From a virus, in IMG/VR virus record IMGVR_UViG_3300021356_000168, positions 1 through 23,679 of that record: a stretch of 23,679 nucleotides of DNA. One strand, 5' to 3'. Shown one piece after another: positions 3,251 to 19,127 of this stretch. The number at the start of each line of letters is the position of its first letter. Position 1 is the first letter of the stretch. The notes under the pieces were generated by a model that saw only the letters and a program-made list of their open reading frames with translations, did no database searches and had not been told where the DNA came from. A program made the translations under genes and the position numbers.

Positions 3251-3280
3251 ATGCATAGGCAAAAAACAGGAGGCATAACT

Positions 3281-4297
3281 ATGGCATCATTAGCAGAAAT
3301 CCGAGCGAAGCTCAAAGAACAAGAAAATCGTACAAGCGGTGGCAACACAGGCGGTGGCGATAACAGCATTTACCCATTTTGGAATATGAAAGAAGGCGAG
3401 CAAGCAACGCTACGCTTTTTGCCTGACGGCGATGATTCAAACACTTTCTTTTGGAAAGAGCGTTTGGTTATTAAACTTCCATTTGCAGGAGTAAAGGGCG
3501 AAACAGATTCACGTCCAGTACAAGTACAAGTTCCGTGTATGGAAATGTATAACGAATCATGTCCAATCCTACAAGAAGTACGTGGTTGGTTTAAAGATCC
3601 AAGTTTAGAAGACATGGGTCGTAAGTATTGGAAAAAACGTTCTTATATCTTCCAAGGCTTTGTTGTTGATAATCCACTTAATGAAGATACAACGCCAGAG
3701 AATCCGATTCGTCGATTCATTATTGGTCCACAAATCTTCCAACTAATCAAAGCAGCACTAATGGATCCAGATATGGAAGAACTGCCAACAGATTATACTG
3801 CTGGTGTAGACTTCCGTTTGTCTAAAGGTTCAAAAGGTGGATATGCTGACTACGGTGCAAGTAACTGGGCACGTAGAGAGCGTCCACTAGGCGATACTGA
3901 AATGAACGCAATCAACACAAATGGATTGTTTAACCTAAATGACTTCCTTCCTAAAAAGCCAGGCGAAGTAGAACTAAAAGTTCTTACTGAAATGTTTGAA
4001 GCAAGTGTTGACGGAGAAGCATACGATGCTGAACGTTGGAGTCAATATTTCCGTCCAAGCGGAATGCAAGCACGTACAGGTGATCCTGTAACTGCAACTC
4101 CTGCTCCGGCACCAGCAGCACCAGCAGCACCAGCAGCAGAAACAACATCTGATACAGGCTGGAAAGAACCTGCTCCGGCAGCAACACCTGAACCAACTCC
4201 TGCTCCTGCTCCGACAGCAGAGGCAGCACCTGCAGAAGAAAACGCAGGCGGCGCACAAGACATTCTAGCAATGATTCGTGCAAGACAAGGTCAATAA
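3281..4297 (+). CDS. 32: Single-stranded DNA-binding protein, gp32-like
   Basis: Coats ssDNA during replication and recombination and positions UvsX and UvsY. The start at 3281 is chosen over the Met at 3251 because AGGAGG (3268-3273) lies 7 nt upstream and the protein then opens MASLAEIRAKL, a basic N-terminal arm like the gp32 cooperativity region. The core, residues about 30-245, has gp32-like features: ATLRFLPDGDD, an ESCPIL segment, KRSYIFQGFVV, and a C-terminal FLPKKPGEVE. T4 gp32 binds zinc through His-Cys-Cys-Cys; here the last Cys of the CPVC-type motif is Leu, so zinc binding looks lost. Residues about 270-320 are an Ala/Pro-rich linker in place of the acidic tail, ending in a helix-like DILAMIRARQ. 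Length is 338 aa against 301 in T4. Confidence 0.85.
   Translation: MASLAEIRAKLKEQENRTSGGNTGGGDNSIYPFWNMKEGEQATLRFLPDGDDSNTFFWKERLVIKLPFAGVKGETDSRPVQVQVPCMEMYNESCPILQEVRGWFKDPSLEDMGRKYWKKRSYIFQGFVVDNPLNEDTTPENPIRRFIIGPQIFQLIKAALMDPDMEELPTDYTAGVDFRLSKGSKGGYADYGASNWARRERPLGDTEMNAINTNGLFNLNDFLPKKPGEVELKVLTEMFEASVDGEAYDAERWSQYFRPSGMQARTGDPVTATPAPAPAAPAAPAAETTSDTGWKEPAPAATPEPTPAPAPTAEAAPAEENAGGAQDILAMIRARQGQ
4111..4137 (+). repeat. Three tandem 9-nt repeats in the gp32 linker
   Basis: ACCAGCAGC occurs three times head to tail (4111, 4120, 4129), encoding Ala/Pro triplets in the C-terminal linker of gp32. Flanking CTGCTCCGGC-type sequence is a looser version. Such a run can slip during replication, changing linker length without breaking frame. 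Confidence 0.8.
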
Positions 4298-4375: not shown

Positions 4376-5467
4376 ATGGCTACTAAGGCATTCGATCCTT
4401 CAAAGTTTCGAAACAGTTTAACAAAATCTATTAAAGGTATGAGTTCAGGGTTCAATGATCCACAAGATTGGATCAGCACAGGTAACTTTGCACTTAACTA
4501 TTTACTTAGTGGAGACTTTAGAAAAGGTGTTCCATTAGGAAAAGTAAGCGTGTTTGCAGGCGAATCAGGTGCAGGCAAATCTTACATTGTGTCTGGTAAT
4601 ATTGTAAAGTCAGCACAAGAACAAGGTATTTTTGTTGTATTGATTGACAGTGAAAATGCACTTGATGAAAAGTGGCTACACGCATTAGGTGTAGAAACAA
4701 CAGAAGACAAAATCCTAAAACTTAACATGGCAATGATTGATGATGTTGCTAAAACTATTTCAACATTTATGGATGACTATCGTGCAATGGACGAAACAGA
4801 CCGTCCTAAAGTGTTGTTTGTAGTTGATAGTTTAGGTATGCTTATGTCACCAACTGAAGTTAATCAGTTTGAAGCAGGTGATATGAAGGGTGATATGGGT
4901 CGTAAGGCCAAAGCACTGAAAGCATTGGTTACTAACTGTGTTAATATGTTTGGTTCACACAACGTAGGTATGGTTGTTACTAACCACACATACGCATCGC
5001 AAGATATGTTTGATCCAGACGACAAGATCTCAGGTGGTAGTGGTTTTATCTATGCAAGCTCGATGGTGGTTGCTATGAAAAAGCTGAAACTAAAAGAAGA
5101 TGCAGATGGTAACAAAACTAGCACTGTGAATGGTATTAGAGCAGCGTGTAAAGTTATGAAAACACGTTACGCAAAACCGTTTGAAGGTGTACAAGTAAAA
5201 ATCCCATACGAAACAGGTATGGATCCATATTCAGGTATGTTTGATTTGTTAGAAGCAAAAGGCTTACTTGAAAAACAAGGTAACCGCTACAAGTATATTG
5301 ATAGCAAAGGCGAAGAAACTCTAGAATATCGCAAGAACTGGACAGGTGACAAACTCGAAATGATCATGGCCGATTTACCGGCAAAAGAAGAACAAATGGT
5401 AAATATCGCTAACGCAGACGAAGAAGCTGTGGTTGATCATGAAGAGGGACTTGCGATAAATGAATGA
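4376..5467 (+). CDS. uvsX: UvsX, RecA-like strand-exchange recombinase
   Basis: ATP-dependent recombinase that forms filaments on ssDNA for recombination-dependent replication and repair. A RecA core is clear: Walker A GESGAGKS at residues 62-69, catalytic Glu in LIDSEN (89-94), Walker B VLFVVDS at 146-152, VVTNHTY near 200-206 and the DNA-binding L2 loop with KISGGSGFIY at 217-226. Length of 363 aa is close to T4 UvsX (about 390). The start has AGGAG 5 nt upstream. The P-loop is closer to bacterial RecA (GxxxxGKT/S with internal Gly) than to the T4 sequence. The C-terminus is acidic. It overlaps the next gene by 8 nt and precedes a UvsY-like gene, a sensible partner order. Confidence 0.93.
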   Translation: MATKAFDPSKFRNSLTKSIKGMSSGFNDPQDWISTGNFALNYLLSGDFRKGVPLGKVSVFAGESGAGKSYIVSGNIVKSAQEQGIFVVLIDSENALDEKWLHALGVETTEDKILKLNMAMIDDVAKTISTFMDDYRAMDETDRPKVLFVVDSLGMLMSPTEVNQFEAGDMKGDMGRKAKALKALVTNCVNMFGSHNVGMVVTNHTYASQDMFDPDDKISGGSGFIYASSMVVAMKKLKLKEDADGNKTSTVNGIRAACKVMKTRYAKPFEGVQVKIPYETGMDPYSGMFDLLEAKGLLEKQGNRYKYIDSKGEETLEYRKNWTGDKLEMIMADLPAKEEQMVNIANADEEAVVDHEEGLAINE

Positions 5468-11325: not shown

Positions 11326-11788
11326 ATTTGGAGCAGGAGAAACACCAACAAAAACAGACTTTCTACAGCAAGATATAAGAGCAGTAGAAGGTATTGATTT
11401 TGTGTGTGCTGCCTGGGATATAGATAAACATGTGAATTTGAACTCTGTAGACGAAATATTTTCAAGACATTTCTTTGAACATTTAACATTTAGACAAGGG
11501 GAATATTTGTTGGAAGTTTGGCACAAAATATTAAAGCCAGGAGGCAGAGTAGAAATGATGTTGCCAAATATGTTATGCCATGTGCATCAATGGATAAATG
11601 GTGATCCAAGAGCAGCAGAAAATATATACGGACATCAACGAGGCGAGTTTGAAGATACATGGGATACACACAAAAGCGGATACGATGCATACAGTATGCA
11701 AGAACTAGTAGAAAGAAAAAACTTTGTTAGATATAAATCGTTTAACAAAGATAAAAGCAAACACTTACATGTAGAGTTTTATAAATGA
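11315..11788 (+). CDS. Small class I SAM-dependent methyltransferase
   Basis: 157 aa from the Met at 11315, chosen over 11303 because MKIEFGAGETPTKTDFLQQD matches the usual start of the predicted methyltransferases that begin with LNLGCGxxPxxGxxNxD. FGAGE is the SAM loop. VDEIFSRHFFEHLTFRQGEY corresponds to the conserved xxSxHxLEHL motif, and ILKPGGRVEMMLPN to the post-motif region. No other domain is present. It overlaps the sulfotransferase by 11 nt and the next gene by 4 nt (ATGA). It probably modifies a sugar or glycan; no acceptor can be deduced. Confidence 0.75.
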   Translation: MKIEFGAGETPTKTDFLQQDIRAVEGIDFVCAAWDIDKHVNLNSVDEIFSRHFFEHLTFRQGEYLLEVWHKILKPGGRVEMMLPNMLCHVHQWINGDPRAAENIYGHQRGEFEDTWDTHKSGYDAYSMQELVERKNFVRYKSFNKDKSKHLHVEFYK

Positions 11789-12561
11789 TTTGCCTTAGTA
11801 AAAATAAAAAAGATGTTTTTATAAACAGATTTGCAAAAGGATCTAATCTTCCTATACAAGATTATGACGAACCAATACCAGATGGTCCAATATTAATACG
11901 CAGTATTGCAAAAAAACTTTTGATAAGAGAACGTTGGAAAACAGGCAAACCTTTTTATTATATGGATAGTGGATACTTTGGCAACTATAAATCAAGGGCT
12001 AATCCAAATGGCTGGAAGTTATGGCATCGTATTGTTAAGAATGATTTACAACACAGTGAAATAAAAGAACGTCCAGATGATAGATGGAAACGTTTAGATA
12101 TCGAACTGAAGTTTAATAACTATGGTGGTAGACATATATTACTTGTTTTACCAAGCGAAAAGCCATGTAAGTTTTACGGCATTGACTTGGACGAATGGAC
12201 AGAACAAACAATACACGAAATAAAAAGACATACTGATAGACCTATTGTGGTAAGAGCAAAAGGCACTAGAGGCGAAAGACTAAAAAATACAATATGGCAA
12301 GACTTGGAAAAATGTCATGCCATGGTTACATATCAAAGTATTGCAGCAGTTGAAAGTGTTATTGCAGGAGTGCCTGCTTTTACACTTGCACCGACAGCAG
12401 CAGACCCGGTGTGTGATAAAGATTTAACTAAACTAGAAAATCCTACTGTACAACATAAAGAAAAGCTACGTGCTTGGGCACATCATTTAGCATATGGACA
12501 GTTTCATACAGATGAGTTTCTAAATGGCAATGCATGGAGAATATTAAAAAATGAAAGTTGA
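11785..12561 (+). CDS. GT-B-like glycan transferase paralogue A (KpsC/KpsS-like?)
   Basis: First of five related proteins. It shares with the others a core with WTEQTIHEIKRHTDRPI (138-154), a VTYQS loop (181-185), AGVPAF (194-199) and LENP (217-220), then W..HLAYGQF...E..NGNAW at the end. The pattern RxHP ... TYNS..ai.a...GvPvF resembles the nucleotide-binding half of GT-B enzymes in the capsule synthesis family (KpsC/KpsS, beta-Kdo transferases). Here RPHP is replaced by RAKG (157-160), so a His-Pro kept in the other four copies is lost and activity may differ. At 258 aa it is the shortest. It overlaps the preceding gene by 4 nt and paralogue B by 11 nt. Confidence 0.65.
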   Translation: MICLSKNKKDVFINRFAKGSNLPIQDYDEPIPDGPILIRSIAKKLLIRERWKTGKPFYYMDSGYFGNYKSRANPNGWKLWHRIVKNDLQHSEIKERPDDRWKRLDIELKFNNYGGRHILLVLPSEKPCKFYGIDLDEWTEQTIHEIKRHTDRPIVVRAKGTRGERLKNTIWQDLEKCHAMVTYQSIAAVESVIAGVPAFTLAPTAADPVCDKDLTKLENPTVQHKEKLRAWAHHLAYGQFHTDEFLNGNAWRILKNES

Positions 12562-13576
12562 TGTATTTTTATCGAGCACGTTCAACAACACAGAACGTGA
12601 AACGCTTGTAAAGTTTTACAATGGTATCAAACGAGATTTGTGGCCGGACGATGCTTTATTAAAACAAAAAAAGATGATGGCACATATTAACAAAGAAAAC
12701 GGATTACGTTCAGGTGTTGAACTTAACTATCATGAAAAAGGTCGAGGCAAGTATGACTTAGCAGTCATAATGGGTAGTTGGAAACCAGAAAGATCAAGTG
12801 TGCATCATGGAGTTAGAACTGCTATTGCTAACAATGAAGAACAAAAACCATTTTTAGTTGTAGAAACACAACTTGTAGGTAGAAAAGTATTCCAGCCTAA
12901 TGCGTATCATAGAATAGGACTAAATGGTTTCTTATGTAACCAAGGTATATTTGGTCCTGTAAAAGATTATCCTAGCGACAGATTTGATAGACTAGATCTG
13001 CCTTACAATGGATGGAATAAAAATAGAGGCGATAAAGTTATTATTGCTTTACAATTACCAGGTGATGCTAGTATGCGTGGCGTCGATATTACTAAATGGG
13101 CTATTGAAACTGTAGGTAAAATAAGAGCAGTAAGTGATCGTCCAATAGAAATAAGAACACATCCAGGTGCAAGTGCTAAAGGTGTATCTTCGTATGCAGA
13201 ACTATATGAATATCTTGCGTTTGCAAATCACCCAAATGTGCATTGTGTAAATGGTAGAGACATACCCTGGGAAGATCATATACTTACAGCTCATTGTGTA
13301 GTTGTATATTCTAGTGGATTAGCTATTGATGCAATACTAAATGGCATACCTGTTATAGCACATGATAGCGGTAATTTTGCTTATCCAATTTGTGATTGTA
13401 AAGCAGATCAAGTTGAGAATCCAAAAATGGCAGATGAAGACATTGTTAAAAACTGGCTCAACACCTTAGCGTACTCTCAATGGTCTCCTAGTGAAATGGA
13501 GTCAGGAGAAGCTTGGCAACATATCAAGCCGTGTGTATATGAATATTTAGAGTTTATAAAAGATGAAAGTAGTTAG
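12551..13576 (+). CDS. GT-B-like glycan transferase paralogue B
   Basis: 341 aa, the longest of the five. The N-terminal half has GSWKP, KPFLVVET (99-106) and YHRIGLNGFLC (119-129), a block also seen in paralogue E as KPVIVLEV and WKVGLNG. The C-terminal half holds ITKWAIETVGKIRAVSDRPIEI (180-201), RTHPG (202-206), VVYSSGLAID (251-260), NGIPV (264-268), QVENP and AYSQW...E..SGEAW. This fits a GT-B fold with donor site in the C-terminal domain. The Kdo/capsule transferase assignment is inference from motif style. The start lies within the end of paralogue A (11-nt overlap) and opens ATGAAAGTTGATG, much like the start of C inside B. Confidence 0.7.
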   Translation: MKVDVFLSSTFNNTERETLVKFYNGIKRDLWPDDALLKQKKMMAHINKENGLRSGVELNYHEKGRGKYDLAVIMGSWKPERSSVHHGVRTAIANNEEQKPFLVVETQLVGRKVFQPNAYHRIGLNGFLCNQGIFGPVKDYPSDRFDRLDLPYNGWNKNRGDKVIIALQLPGDASMRGVDITKWAIETVGKIRAVSDRPIEIRTHPGASAKGVSSYAELYEYLAFANHPNVHCVNGRDIPWEDHILTAHCVVVYSSGLAIDAILNGIPVIAHDSGNFAYPICDCKADQVENPKMADEDIVKNWLNTLAYSQWSPSEMESGEAWQHIKPCVYEYLEFIKDESS

Positions 13577-14492
13577 TTATTTAAAAGGCATACCTAATAG
13601 CAAAAACCAAGAAAAAATAGATGTGTTAAATCATTTTATTACTGGTGTAAATCGTTGTGGAGATATTGGTATAGCAAGTCAAGACAGAGTTTGGCAACCT
13701 AGTGATGCAGCGATATTACAGGGTTTTATCAGCGATCATAGTAGCAAACTACCTAGATCTCCTCATTTGTTATTGCGTAAACAAGTATATGATCAACAAC
13801 TTGCAAATAAGAAACACACTATTATTATTGATAGTAATCTATTTTTATATGCAGATCCAGGTAACACAAAAAGGTATTTACGATATAGTATGAACGGAGT
13901 GTTTCCTACAACAGCAAATTATTTCTGGGATAAGCCTGATCCTAGAAGATGGGAAAGTATAAGTAAAAACTTGAACTTGGATTTGAAACCAGTTAGACAA
14001 ACTGGAAAACATATCCTTATTTGTTGCCAACGTAATGGCGGTTGGAGCATGGGCGGACTAGAAGTAATGGATTGGTTAAGACAAACTGTAAAAAGATTGC
14101 ATAAGTTTACTGATAGACCTATTGTAGTGCGAGGACACCCTGGAGATAAAAAAGCACCCGGATATCTAAGACTACCAAAAAAATGGACTAATGTACGTAT
14201 TAGTAAGAACGAACATATACAACAAGATTTTAAAAACTGTTGGGCAGTTATAACATATAACAGTAGTCCAGGTGTTGCAGCAGCTATAGAAGGCATACCT
14301 GTATTTGTTACAGATCCTGTTCCAGAAGTTAGTCAAGCGTTTGATATTTGCAATACAGAAATAAGAAAAATAGAAAGACCTAGGTTACCAGATAGACAAA
14401 GGTGGATAGAAAAAATATCAATGTGTCATTGGAACTTCGACGAGCTTAAATCCGGAGAAGCGTGGCGTCATATGAGGAGATATATTTGTTAA
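13563..14492 (+). CDS. GT-B-like glycan transferase paralogue C
   Basis: 309 aa. The core is conserved: HILICCQRNGG (150-160), VMDWLRQTVKRLHKFTDRPIVV (168-189), RGHPG (190-194), AVITYNSSPGVAAA (228-241), EGIPVF (243-248), KIERPRLPDRQRW and FDELKSGEAW. The N-terminal domain contains KHTIIIDSNLF and a DPRRW motif shared with A and D (DDRW, PDRW). The TYNSS loop and preceding HP pair are in the arrangement seen in KpsC/KpsS-like GT-B transferases. It overlaps paralogue B by 14 nt and paralogue D by 7 nt, so the array is one translational unit. Acceptor and donor unknown. Confidence 0.7.
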   Translation: MKVVSYLKGIPNSKNQEKIDVLNHFITGVNRCGDIGIASQDRVWQPSDAAILQGFISDHSSKLPRSPHLLLRKQVYDQQLANKKHTIIIDSNLFLYADPGNTKRYLRYSMNGVFPTTANYFWDKPDPRRWESISKNLNLDLKPVRQTGKHILICCQRNGGWSMGGLEVMDWLRQTVKRLHKFTDRPIVVRGHPGDKKAPGYLRLPKKWTNVRISKNEHIQQDFKNCWAVITYNSSPGVAAAIEGIPVFVTDPVPEVSQAFDICNTEIRKIERPRLPDRQRWIEKISMCHWNFDELKSGEAWRHMRRYIC

Positions 14493-15403
14493 AAATAGCA
14501 GGTATTAGAGGATGTACAAAAGCAGTAAAAAATATTTTGAAAGGTATACAAAGACATGGTGATCAATATATACTTGCTGAAAAACATTCTGAAGAAGCTA
14601 GAAACGCAGATGCATACCTACAAACTAATCTTTTAAAACCAAAGTATGCTACAAAAGATAGATCTGGTTCATACGAATATGTTTTAGATAGTGGCAAGCC
14701 TTTCTTAGTGCAAGAAAGTGCTAACTTTAGAAACTATTACAAAGAATGGCAAAGACTAGGATGGTACAGTTACAAATGGACGGATGGCATATTCGGCAAT
14801 GAAAAATCTCCTCCAGATAGATGGAACAAGTTTGTAAAAATGACAGGCTGTAAAATAAAAAATTGGCAAAGTCATGGTGGCAAAATTATTCTCATGGGTC
14901 AGAAAGAAGGAGATAGTAGTCTTACAGACTTGTATGATCAAGGTAAAACTTTTGCACAATGGACACAAGAAACAGTAAATGAAATAAGAAAGTATTCAGA
15001 CAGAGATATAATCATAAGACCGCATCCAAGAGGACTTAGCAGAGGAATAAAAGTTGCCAATAGCATAAAAGGAAAAAATGTATATGTATCTGAAAACATA
15101 AGCCACGGAGGAAATCAAGGCGGTGAAGGATTGTTAGCAGATTTACAAAATGCACATTGCGTAGTTACATACAATAGTTTAAGTGCTATTGAAGCTGTAT
15201 GTGAAGGAGTTCCTGTTTTTGCTTTGAACAACGGAAGTATGGTCTGGCCTATAGCACATAGAAAGTTGAGTAGGATAGAAAACTTGAACTATTCAATAGA
15301 TATTACGCAATGGTGTAACGATATTGCATATACACAATGGCATATTGACGAAATGAGAGCTGGCGAAGCGTGGGAACATTTACGTCCATTAATGTTCAAA
15401 TAA
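14486..15403 (+). CDS. GT-B-like glycan transferase paralogue D (TTG start)
   Basis: 305 aa from a TTG at 14486. This start is preferred to the GTG at 14462 because GAGGAG (14474-14479) lies 6 nt before it, and the product then begins MLKIAGIRGCTKAVKNIL, aligning with the first residues of paralogues B and C. Key motifs: WTQETVNEIRKYSDRDIII (159-177), RPHP (178-181), VVTYNSLSAIEAV (226-238), EGVPVF (240-245), RIEN, AYTQW...E..AGEAW. This is the best match of the five to the RPHP ... NS..aiEA ... GvPV signature of KpsC/KpsS-type transferases. It overlaps paralogue C by 7 nt. Its 3' end overlaps the convergent methyltransferase by 8 nt, leaving no room for a terminator. Confidence 0.7.
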   Translation: MLKIAGIRGCTKAVKNILKGIQRHGDQYILAEKHSEEARNADAYLQTNLLKPKYATKDRSGSYEYVLDSGKPFLVQESANFRNYYKEWQRLGWYSYKWTDGIFGNEKSPPDRWNKFVKMTGCKIKNWQSHGGKIILMGQKEGDSSLTDLYDQGKTFAQWTQETVNEIRKYSDRDIIIRPHPRGLSRGIKVANSIKGKNVYVSENISHGGNQGGEGLLADLQNAHCVVTYNSLSAIEAVCEGVPVFALNNGSMVWPIAHRKLSRIENLNYSIDITQWCNDIAYTQWHIDEMRAGEAWEHLRPLMFK

Positions 15404-16689: not shown

Positions 16690-17414
16690 GCTACTTTTCT
16701 TTCATATTTACTTTTGCCTTTAGCATGTGTAAAATATTCACCAAGAACTGTTTTCTTCAAAGGCGTTCTGTTTTTCTTTGTTGGATGCAAGTTAACAGTT
16801 TCTATACCATTTTCGTTTGCCCACTTTACACAATCAATAGTTGCCCAAGTATCATGTGGTTTTGCGAATCTAAATGGATCGTGAAGTTCTCTACTTTCGT
16901 ATATGTGTTCGTATCTTTGCATGAACTGTTTTGCATTTGCATGTTTATTGTTATAAAAGAAAATACAAGTTTCTGAATTATCTGCGTGTACTATTTCTCC
17001 ATTACGATTAGTTATAAGTCCAGGTGCATACATATATGCAATAAGTTCGTTATTGGGAAGTATTGTATCTAGGAATGTTTCATTTACATCCACAGTTGTT
17101 TCAGTGTCAGCATCTAACCAAATAAGTGTATCTTGCGATAATGTTTTGCAGGCGTGCATCCATGAATACGCTTTGTATGCAAACTTACGAAATCTACGTT
17201 TTGTATCGTTAATAAAACTTTGCATATTTGGATTACAACATTCATCAATATTTAATGTTATAATATTGGGCTCACTATAAGGCAGTTCAAAGTCTTCTAA
17301 ATATACATACAAGTTTATATTCTTTGGCCAATGTTTGATGTAGCTTTCTATCATTTGATAACCTATGTTATCAAAATATTCTTTATTCATCGTTGTAACT
17401 GTTGCATATGTCAT
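16686..17414 (-). CDS. GT-A/GT8-like glycosyltransferase (3)
   Basis: 242 aa from the ATG at 17414, which overlaps the upstream stop as ATGA and has AGAAGGA 8 nt before it. A TTG two codons earlier is less likely. TLIWLDADTE (96-105) gives the DxD at 101 and 103, identical to that in the gene at 6139-6852. An upstream KFAYKAYSWMHA helix and a late GEYFTHAKGKSKYERK element also recur among the three WLDADT paralogues. The His-x-Lys-Gly element is in the position of the HxxGxxK motif of GT8. A sugar transferase of unknown specificity. Confidence 0.75.
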   Translation of the reverse strand: MTYATVTTMNKEYFDNIGYQMIESYIKHWPKNINLYVYLEDFELPYSEPNIITLNIDECCNPNMQSFINDTKRRFRKFAYKAYSWMHACKTLSQDTLIWLDADTETTVDVNETFLDTILPNNELIAYMYAPGLITNRNGEIVHADNSETCIFFYNNKHANAKQFMQRYEHIYESRELHDPFRFAKPHDTWATIDCVKWANENGIETVNLHPTKKNRTPLKKTVLGEYFTHAKGKSKYERKVA

Positions 17415-18235
17415 TGCCAATATCCTTCTGTTCTATTCACAATCAAGTCTTTTGGTTTGTTACTTTTACCGATATCTTTTCTATCACCTTTCAAGTGATC
17501 AAAGTATTTTCCTAAATCGCTATTGATAAAAGGATGACCTTCACCGTTAATCAAGTCTCCACTGATATTATAATAAGGAAATCCGTCAAACTTGCCTTGA
17601 ACTTTTTTGCGCACTTCTTCAAATACAAAACTATCATGCCATTCATCCATTTTAAAAATGCCTGACTCTGCTTCTTCGTATACAGTTTCAAACTTTTTCA
17701 AAAACCATTTACCAGGTTTTGTTTTTAGATTTATACCATAAAATCCACACTCAGGCCATTTCTTGCCACGTCCTAAATAACTCATCCATGCACGTGATGG
17801 AGTAAACTGTCTTAGTTGATCATATGTTACTGGGCTATGACAATATGTATCTGCATCTAACCAAATAAGCCAATCTGTATCACAACGCTCTGCTGCATCA
17901 AACACTGCATATACTTTATTACTAAAACGTATTGCATCCCACTTAAATCCTTTATGCCAGTCTTTAGGACGTCTCCTTTTTATTTCAGGTGGACACACAC
18001 CATTTGCTTTTGGCTCATCTTTCCAACGATGTTTAAACTCTAATAACTTTGGTAAATTTTTACTTTGTTCTAGAACGATTATACGTTCATCATTTGTTTC
18101 AGGTTCACAGTGTTCTGTATACAAATATAGTTTTATGTCTTTGTCTACGTTTTTACTAAAACTATCCATAAACCTTCTTCCGTATAAATCTAATACTGGT
18201 TTATGAAACGTAGACACAAAAGAAATTGTTTGCAC
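17411..18235 (-). CDS. GT-A/GT8-like glycosyltransferase (4), GTG start
   Basis: First gene of the inverted block. The frame can start at ATG 18277, but GTG at 18235 is preferred: AAGGA lies 7 nt before it and the product then opens MQTISFVSTFHKPVLDLY, aligning with the start of the paralogue at 6139. With that start it is 274 aa. WLIWLDADTY (122-131) gives the DxD at 127-129. An insertion with the basic EIKRRRPKDWHKGFKWDA lies near 84-101. The C-terminus has GKYFDHLKGDRKDIGKS, the GT8-like His-x-Lys-Gly element. It overlaps the next minus gene by 4 nt. Forty bases separate its start from the divergent plus-strand gene at 18276. Confidence 0.72.
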   Translation of the reverse strand: MQTISFVSTFHKPVLDLYGRRFMDSFSKNVDKDIKLYLYTEHCEPETNDERIIVLEQSKNLPKLLEFKHRWKDEPKANGVCPPEIKRRRPKDWHKGFKWDAIRFSNKVYAVFDAAERCDTDWLIWLDADTYCHSPVTYDQLRQFTPSRAWMSYLGRGKKWPECGFYGINLKTKPGKWFLKKFETVYEEAESGIFKMDEWHDSFVFEEVRKKVQGKFDGFPYYNISGDLINGEGHPFINSDLGKYFDHLKGDRKDIGKSNKPKDLIVNRTEGYWQ

Positions 18236-18275
18236 GTTGCTATCCTTGTTAAATATAGTACTGGAGTATTTACAC

Positions 18276-19127
18276 ATGAGATTCCGTTTATGGAAAGAAT
18301 ATGGAGCAATGAATGCGAAACCTATTTTTGATGCTTTTCATCATAGCCTTCTCAGTGCCGGCCACTCTGTTTGTGATACTAGCGATTTCAACGCTGTTGA
18401 TTGCCACGTTATTTGGAGCATTCTTTTTAACGGTAGAATGGGTCCTAACCAACACGTTTGGAAGAGTGCTAAACAATATAGAAAGCCAGTTATCGTCCTC
18501 GAAGTTGGAGGAATCAAACGAGGAGAAACGTGGAAGGTCGGCCTTAACGGGATCAATAGAGATGCCTATTTCTGTGCAAAGGGAAATGATGAGACGAGAG
18601 CAAAATCGCTAGGAATAAAATTACGTCCATGGCGTGATAAAGGCGATCATATATTAATCTGTGGTCAACACGATAAAAGTTTACAATGGCAGAACATGCC
18701 GCCTATGAGCAAATGGGTGATGCAAACAATAGATGAAGTACAAAAGCATACTGACTTGCCTATTATTTTTAGACCGCATCCTAGATGTAGATTAGATCAC
18801 ATCGAAAGACAATACAAAAACGTTTATAGAGATGATCCTATAAAACTTGATAACACATACGACGACTTTAATCTTAGTTTTAAAGATTGTCATGCTGTGA
18901 TAAGTTGGAGTAGTAATCCAGGACCGCAAGCTGTGTTAGCAGGCATACCAGTATTTACAGGGCCTAGTAGTTTAGCATACGAAGTTGCAAACACAGATTT
19001 AAGTAAAATAGAGTATCCAAATAAACCAAATAGACAACAATGGTTAAATGATTATGCTCATACTGAATACACAGTTGACGAAATAGCAAATGGTATACCA
19101 CTGAAAAACTTGACTCCACGTTTATAG
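18276..19127 (+). CDS. GT-B-like glycan transferase paralogue E
   Basis: 283 aa from the ATG at 18276, with GGAG (18263-18266) 9 nt upstream. An in-frame TTG at 18237 would add 13 residues and is less likely. Shared blocks: KPVIVLEV (70-77), WKVGLNG (86-92) as in paralogue B, HILICGQ (125-131), MSKWVMQTIDEVQKHTDLPII (144-164), RPHP (166-169), AVISWSSNPGPQAV (207-220), AGIPVF (222-227), KIEYP. The final GEAW motif of the others is replaced by NGIPLKN, so the C-terminus is divergent. Codons over residues 16-53 end almost only in C or T, unlike the rest of the window, and the same DNA carries an overlapping ORF at 18313-18612. It is separated from paralogues A-D by the inverted block. Confidence 0.72.
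   Translation: MRFRLWKEYGAMNAKPIFDAFHHSLLSAGHSVCDTSDFNAVDCHVIWSILFNGRMGPNQHVWKSAKQYRKPVIVLEVGGIKRGETWKVGLNGINRDAYFCAKGNDETRAKSLGIKLRPWRDKGDHILICGQHDKSLQWQNMPPMSKWVMQTIDEVQKHTDLPIIFRPHPRCRLDHIERQYKNVYRDDPIKLDNTYDDFNLSFKDCHAVISWSSNPGPQAVLAGIPVFTGPSSLAYEVANTDLSKIEYPNKPNRQQWLNDYAHTEYTVDEIANGIPLKNLTPRL
18313..18612 (+). CDS. Candidate overprinted gene: 99-aa membrane protein in +1 frame inside paralogue E
   Basis: Not a recognised family. The ATG at 18313 has GGAG (18303-18306) 6 nt upstream. Residues 4-41 are uncharged and strongly hydrophobic (LFLMLFIIAF through FFLTV), enough for one long or two short membrane helices, with Arg2 at the N-side. The remaining 58 residues are hydrophilic and charged (KLEESNEEKRGR, REMMRREQNR). 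This is unlike shadow ORFs elsewhere in the window, which are mixtures of Ile, Tyr, Cys, Ser and Phe. A hand count gives about 44% GC over 18301-18600 against about 35% just after. Architecture could suit a holin-like, anti-holin or superinfection-exclusion protein, but no function is claimed. Confidence 0.5.
   Translation: MRNLFLMLFIIAFSVPATLFVILAISTLLIATLFGAFFLTVEWVLTNTFGRVLNNIESQLSSSKLEESNEEKRGRSALTGSIEMPISVQREMMRREQNR

Follow-up and report, generated by a model that had tools for sequence, protein, structure and literature searches.

Overprinting, the reading of one stretch of DNA in two frames, is well documented for viruses with small genomes and is usually put down to compression there. 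In phiX174, gene E lies nested in gene D and encodes a small hydrophobic lysis protein with a membrane-spanning region (PMC8227390). In a tailed phage, Pseudomonas phage Fc02, the overlapping ORFs olg1/olg2 have exclusion activity (PMC9936078). The candidate gene described here, found inside a glycosyltransferase-like gene that we call E, resembles phiX174 E in being a same-strand nested overprint in the +1 frame that would encode a small hydrophobic protein. The mechanics are also alike: the T or C third positions of the outer gene are the second positions of the inner one, which gives a Leu-rich membrane segment. The two cases differ in that the outer gene here is glycosyltransferase-like and belongs to a large dsDNA phage, whereas phiX174 D is a gene of an ssDNA phage; no sequence relation between the inner gene and phiX174 E was found, and the likeness is one of kind rather than homology. 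Unlike phiX174 E, moreover, the inner gene varies between alleles of one orthologous locus: some lack it, and the others have it in one of three lengths. With Fc02 olg1/olg2 it shares an alternate-frame ORF, a tailed dsDNA phage as carrier and a start that closely follows the first gene's own start, but these are different genes from E and its inner gene. The features of the locus are as follows.

18263..18266, + strand: GGAG, Shine-Dalgarno-like site of E, 9 nt before ATG 18276 (sequence)
18276..19127, + strand: host gene E, 283-aa glycosyltransferase-like protein with a predicted WbbB/KpsC-type Kdo-transferase-like fold (translation, homologues, AF2, Foldseek)
18303..18306, + strand: GGAG, Shine-Dalgarno-like site of the inner gene, 6 nt before ATG 18313 (sequence; same in homologues L064 and L020)
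18310..18312, + strand: +1-frame TGA immediately 5' of the inner start (TGAATG), E codon 12 (sequence; homologue counts)
18313..18612, + strand: putative inner (overprinted) gene, 99-aa predicted membrane protein, +1 frame of E (ORF, homologues, codon choice)
18322..18435, + strand: uncharged hydrophobic segment, inner residues 4-41 (composition; conservation against L064)
18474..18609, + strand: charged tail of the inner protein as found in the long class of alleles, E codons 67-111 (open frame, GC3, codon choice)

The window, that is, the whole 23,679-base IMG/VR virus record analysed, seems to derive from a large T4-like phage. The RecA-like protein encoded at 4376-5467 shares 59-66% identity with its counterparts in phages whose genomes measure 337-490 kb, the closest coming from the jumbo phages Agrobacterium phage Atu_ph07, Phosso and Vibrio 2.275.O, and this points to a large-genome phage of which the window would be one fragment. 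In another part of the window, several minus-strand ORFs at 3974-4283 look like by-products of the low-complexity repeats at the Ala/Pro/Thr-rich end of gene 3251-4297.

Gene E has four paralogues, A-D, at 11785-15403, and its structure is predicted with confidence (AF2, pLDDT 91, pTM 0.88). A Foldseek comparison of the model with the PDB returned WbbB, KpsC and KrkA (E 3e-7 to 1e-5, prob 1.00), and the predicted fold of E matches the overall fold of these retaining Kdo transferases (WbbB belongs to GT99 and KpsC to GT107) at 12-15% identity and a TM of 0.40-0.53, E being the smaller protein; none of the three was retrieved from the PDB with a sequence profile of E. By fold, E is predicted to be a Kdo-transferase-like enzyme. 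We know of no nested gene in WbbB, KpsC or KrkA. Viral capsule-polysaccharide proteins also match the E model structurally, among them those of the algal Tetraselmis virus 1 (TM 0.78), so the transferase fold of E appears to be common to phages and a giant algal virus.

In most loci, E is accompanied by relatives of the neighboring glycan genes and of the gene at 17411-18277 upstream, and is followed by relatives of the 19145-20320 gene and of the UvsW helicase. Between the window and L064, UvsW is 97% identical and E 65%, E evolving far faster than its neighbor. In its longest reading, the opposite-strand gene 17411-18277 shares one CATG (18275-18278) with E (ATG 18276, +), such that the two start codons overlap, although its true start may be a later one. 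The orientation of the gene upstream of E differs between relatives (the window, L064, L113, L040, L020 and L170 were compared), and the glycan cluster is therefore a rearranging region.

A first-pass annotation of the window had proposed the inner ORF on the basis of its layout and composition, and these descriptions held when recounted. The ORF is present, starts 37 bases after the start of E and encodes 99 aa, with the GGAG where it had been placed. The 38-residue hydrophobic segment contains no charged residues, and the tail (residues 43-99) has 8 acidic and 9 basic ones; C or T is the third base in 37 of the 38 codons from E 16 to 53; and the GC content is 43.7% over 18301-18600, compared with 30.7% before and 35.3% after it. 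For the inner protein, AF2 returned one long helix only (pTM 0.40), and we propose that the hydrophobic segment of ~38-42 residues forms either one long helix or two hairpin helices.

The first question is whether such an ORF could be expected by chance. It runs for 99 codons where the null averages 41 (p=0.001), and the +1 frame stays open to E codon 111 where the null averages 30 (p<2.5e-4). Among the 28 genes of the window, with both sense frames considered, E shows by far the strongest alternative-frame excess, followed by uvsW and C (p about 0.04). Sixteen of the 37 pyrimidine endings in E codons 16-53 are forced by the amino acid (Asp/Asn/His/Tyr/Cys/Phe); the free-choice codons end in a pyrimidine in 21 of 21 cases, with 0.52 expected from the codon usage of E itself, an outcome reached in none of 4000 resamplings (p<2.5e-4). 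The codon resampling and the ORF-length null thus reject a chance ORF, and the amino-acid composition of E alone is rejected because it accounts for the 16 forced codons and not for the 21 free ones. Given E and its codon usage, the probability of the long tail being open by chance is 0.0002 in the window and 0.004 in L064. Paralogues A-D were checked for a similar overprint, and only C showed a mild excess (p=0.04 among many tests). In C, the +1 frame is open for 72 codons at 13674-13893 (null mean 46, p=0.04 uncorrected), and a hydrophobic 63-aa ORF lies at 13702-13893.

Homologues of E were then compared as a set of 128 distinct sequences, including the window, that seemingly represent one orthologous phage locus. 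The +1 frame is open from its start in 76 of them and is interrupted by stops at codons 25-60 in the other 52. The position of the first +1 stop is bimodal and separates closed alleles (n=52, codons 25-60) from short (n=41, 66-77), mid (n=22, 88-93) and long ones (n=13, 112-114), the window allele being long. The surrounding neighborhood is alike for open and closed homologues. Across the open homologues, only the +1 frame is stop-free up to the end of each class; the +2 frame and the antisense frames are not. Two antisense ORFs, at 18288-18476 and 18341-18556, were rejected because no antisense frame is stop-free across the open homologues, and where in-phase antisense stops are partly depleted, this follows mechanically from the pyrimidine endings. 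Open-class E alleles are also carried by two Neomarinimicrobiota MAG contigs (L146 and L147, 153 and 335 kb), which may be phage contigs binned with a Neomarinimicrobiota MAG.

Since the open and closed states were defined from E codon 14 onward, codon 12 provides independent evidence. A +1 stop is found there in 45 of the 52 closed homologues and in 5 of the 76 open ones (p=2e-21), and in four of these five, as in the window, the next codon is a start codon. Most other open homologues can start at an ATG at codon 9 or a GTG at codon 10, often behind GGA or GGAG. The inner start codon varies between homologues (ATG, GTG or TTG), and one open homologue, L035, has no early inner start. The first-pass annotation had named +1 stops in homologues as a finding that would speak against overprinting; such stops do exist in 52 alleles, but those are the very alleles that lack the codon bias described next, and the other 76 are open.

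Another important question is whether codon choice in E carries a sign of selection on the inner frame. Because a pyrimidine at the third position mechanically removes +1 stops, the comparison was restricted to safe sites, namely, four-fold sites at which no choice of third base creates a +1 stop; this restriction removes the mechanical link between pyrimidines and an open frame as a cause of the bias. Over E codons 14-53, 282 of 342 safe sites are pyrimidines in open homologues and 123 of 242 in closed homologues (p=4e-16), and the open homologues' own C-terminal half has 877 of 1628 (p=3e-24 against codons 14-53), both, like the value for codon 12, being pooled p-values that treat related sequences as independent. 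In closed homologues, the fraction (0.51) equals that of their own C-terminal half (p=0.78); a matching C/T bias in closed alleles, which had been named in advance as an argument against an inner gene, is thus absent.

The extent of the pattern follows the extent of the inner ORF. For codons 67-88, 89-111 and 114-283, respectively, GC3 is.25,.27 and.29 in the closed class,.27,.27 and.31 in the short class,.42,.26 and.30 in the mid class and.43,.47 and.28 in the long class, stepping down at each length class's own inner stop. Over codons 89-111, the safe-site pyrimidine fraction is.39 in the long class only and.63-.70 in the other classes, and the inner residues encoded in that part of the long tail are accordingly hydrophilic; a rise in purine-ending codons and GC3 over the tail is confined to the classes whose frame continues into it. 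The ratio of third- to first-position differences over codons 13-53 is 1.67 in closed homologues and 1.25, 1.09 and 0.88 in the short, mid and long classes, and past codon 114 all classes lie at 1.67-1.85. The drop in synonymous change over the overlap that the first-pass annotation had asked for is therefore seen, class-wide as well, and in open homologues only. Because the codon pattern tracks the length of the inner ORF, the GC rise over 18301-18600 is largely explained by the overprint.

These data can be set against two explanations without an inner gene. According to the first, a phage richer in GC and in pyrimidine-ending codons was the source, by recombination, of the N-terminal half of E, and the +1 ORF is accidental; GC is raised over the stretch, and the two halves of E in the window have different nearest relatives. 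However, the bias ends, and flips to purine, exactly at the inner-ORF end of each class, is missing from the C-terminal half of each open homologue, and persists among the 36 open homologues that are less than 85% identical, where mutation would erode a bias that was simply inherited. All but five of the open homologues also lack the +1 stop at E codon 12, and the same bias was sought over codons 13-53 of the closed alleles and not found. We therefore consider foreign codon use very improbable. According to the second, E codons 1 to 60-110 are shaped by selection on something other than a protein, such as RNA structure, a translational ramp or low mutation at the 5' end, and a low-Ks domain of ~60 codons does occur at the 5' end of bacterial genes (PMC12725619). 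This effect is controlled for by the closed homologues, which have the same locus, gene position and 5' end without the reduction; moreover, the affected length varies with the +1 stop, and the inner-frame periodicity and the switch from hydrophobic to hydrophilic are protein-like. No Rfam family and no tRNA were found in the window, and an RNA element was rejected on these grounds. Non-protein selection is likewise very improbable. In all probability, judging from these comparisons, E contains a real, selected protein-coding gene.

The best homologue of the inner ORF, in L064, is 62% identical over its full length and has the same start codon and the same GGAG spacing. Four-fold sites are identical between the window and L064 at 12 of 12 positions in codons 13-66, 7 of 15 in codons 67-112 and 9 of 30 in codons 113-283 (12/12 vs 9/30, Fisher p=5e-5). 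Differences at host positions 1, 2 and 3 number 11, 4 and 4 in codons 13-53 and 52, 26 and 92 in codons 113-283; the former is the periodicity of the inner frame. Over E codons 13-53, which hold the hydrophobic segment, 33 of 41 residues are identical in the inner protein and 28 of 41 in E, and the inner identity is significant when the codons of L064 are resampled with 30-50% of third bases retained (p=1e-4 to 9e-3). Conservation of the tail (67-110) does not exceed the same nulls at that retention. The inner core of ~55 residues, to E codon ~66, is thus well supported and the long tail less so by pairwise conservation, its support coming from codon choice and the stop-free frame. FG and EW, the inner motifs that vary least, owe their constancy largely to invariant residues of E (W47; R54-M55), and it is thus mainly at E third positions that conservation of the inner protein carries information.

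The history of the locus appears to be mosaic. The C-terminal half of E in the window is nearest to two closed alleles, L001 (82% aa) and L004 (80% aa), and the N-terminal half to L064, which makes recombination or repeated gain and loss likely; the N-terminal stretch looks like a module exchanged by recombination. The caution about foreign codons in the first-pass annotation was thus sound as far as a recombinant module is concerned (the window groups with L064, then with L001/L004), but not as an account of a bias that stops or flips where each inner ORF stops. On the larger C-terminal tree, many forks of which may be unsupported, the open/closed state requires at least 21 changes. In a tree-aware test with independent pairs on supported branches of the C-terminal tree, ~5.4 of 7 pairs agreed with the expectation and an average of 0.0 contradicted it (median p 0.03), a result that rests on few supported pairs. 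Overall, none of the three observations that had been proposed as tests of overprinting went against it. Three features of overprinted viral genes were found at this locus, namely, a nested ORF longer than expected by chance, conservation among homologues and a synonymous drop only where the inner frame is open.

Searches for relatives were confined to E in their outcome. All 25 loci retrieved with the inner profile lie inside E genes, and no stand-alone inner homologue was found in IMG/VR. GenBank phages gave no match to the inner protein even at E=10, Pfam gave no meaningful E-value (the window ORF being below the curated cut-off), and the PHROG and PDB sequence searches returned no family, only scattered sub-threshold transmembrane matches, of which the best to a holin PHROG (E 0.09) came from one of 45 inner members. 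The inner protein probably represents a new phage membrane-protein family that exists only as an overprint in a glycosyltransferase gene and that has been gained, lost, lengthened and moved at one locus.

What such a protein would do can be approached through the two kinds of function known for similar layouts. A lysis protein like phiX174 E or a small holin is suggested by the arrangement itself, a +1-frame ORF in which pyrimidine thirds give a hydrophobic segment followed by a hydrophilic tail, within 55-100 aa, as for phiX174 E in D (PMC8227390), and by the single sub-threshold holin match. The resemblance to phiX174 E-type proteins is one of layout only, and no sequence homology to known lysis proteins or holins was found. 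Against this reading, the inner gene lies in a glycan cluster rather than a lysis cassette and is absent from 52 of 128 alleles, which is unexpected for a needed lysis protein; large tailed phages, moreover, normally encode their own holin and endolysin. A lysis function is accordingly improbable. Alternatively, the inner product could be a superinfection-exclusion or receptor-modifying membrane protein unrelated to the chemistry of E, whose presence at this locus reflects exchange together with the E allele. T4 Imm is an example of a small hydrophobic protein that keeps out superinfecting phages, and both the presence/absence polymorphism and the exchange between alleles suit an arms race. 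Phage Fc02 provides a precedent for exclusion activity of overlapping ORFs (PMC9936078), but the inner protein has no sequence match to any exclusion protein; we regard this alternative as somewhat unlikely.

Overall, an overprinted, translated gene in E that makes a small membrane protein is the best explanation, and a highly likely one. What can be read directly from the alleles is the ORF, the fact that it is conserved and a mark of selection at the codon level; from these we infer translation, internal initiation and membrane insertion of the product. Ribosomes would start internally on the E mRNA, in the window at ATG 18313 behind GGAG and in relatives at the ATG of codon 9 or the GTG of codon 10, and would read the +1 frame, such that one message could yield both E and the inner protein. 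The product would be a small membrane protein with a hydrophobic segment followed, in some phages, by a charged tail. Selection would keep the inner gene in ~60% of the sampled E alleles, in three nested lengths, with the rest lacking it, and recombination of the N-terminal half of E may carry it between alleles. The inner protein could serve as an inner-membrane accessory in a phage surface-glycan cluster, acting jointly with E or alongside it to modify the envelope or to exclude superinfecting phages. The glycan-cluster setting, the Kdo-transferase-like host gene and the dispensability of the inner gene favor such an envelope accessory or exclusion role over lysis; we put this role forward tentatively, as a possibility that may well prove wrong.

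If this explanation is correct, living phages carry all four states side by side (closed, short, mid and long), which would record stages in the birth and extension of a gene. The locus would then represent a strongly supported, fully nested gene in a large-genome tailed-phage lineage, in which there is no evident need for saving space, and its open and closed alleles, found at one orthologous position, provide matched controls for the birth, extension and loss of overlapping genes. It also indicates that ordinary annotation can miss a membrane protein conserved across many marine phages, here in a fast-changing glycan locus that is likely tied to the interaction between phage and host.
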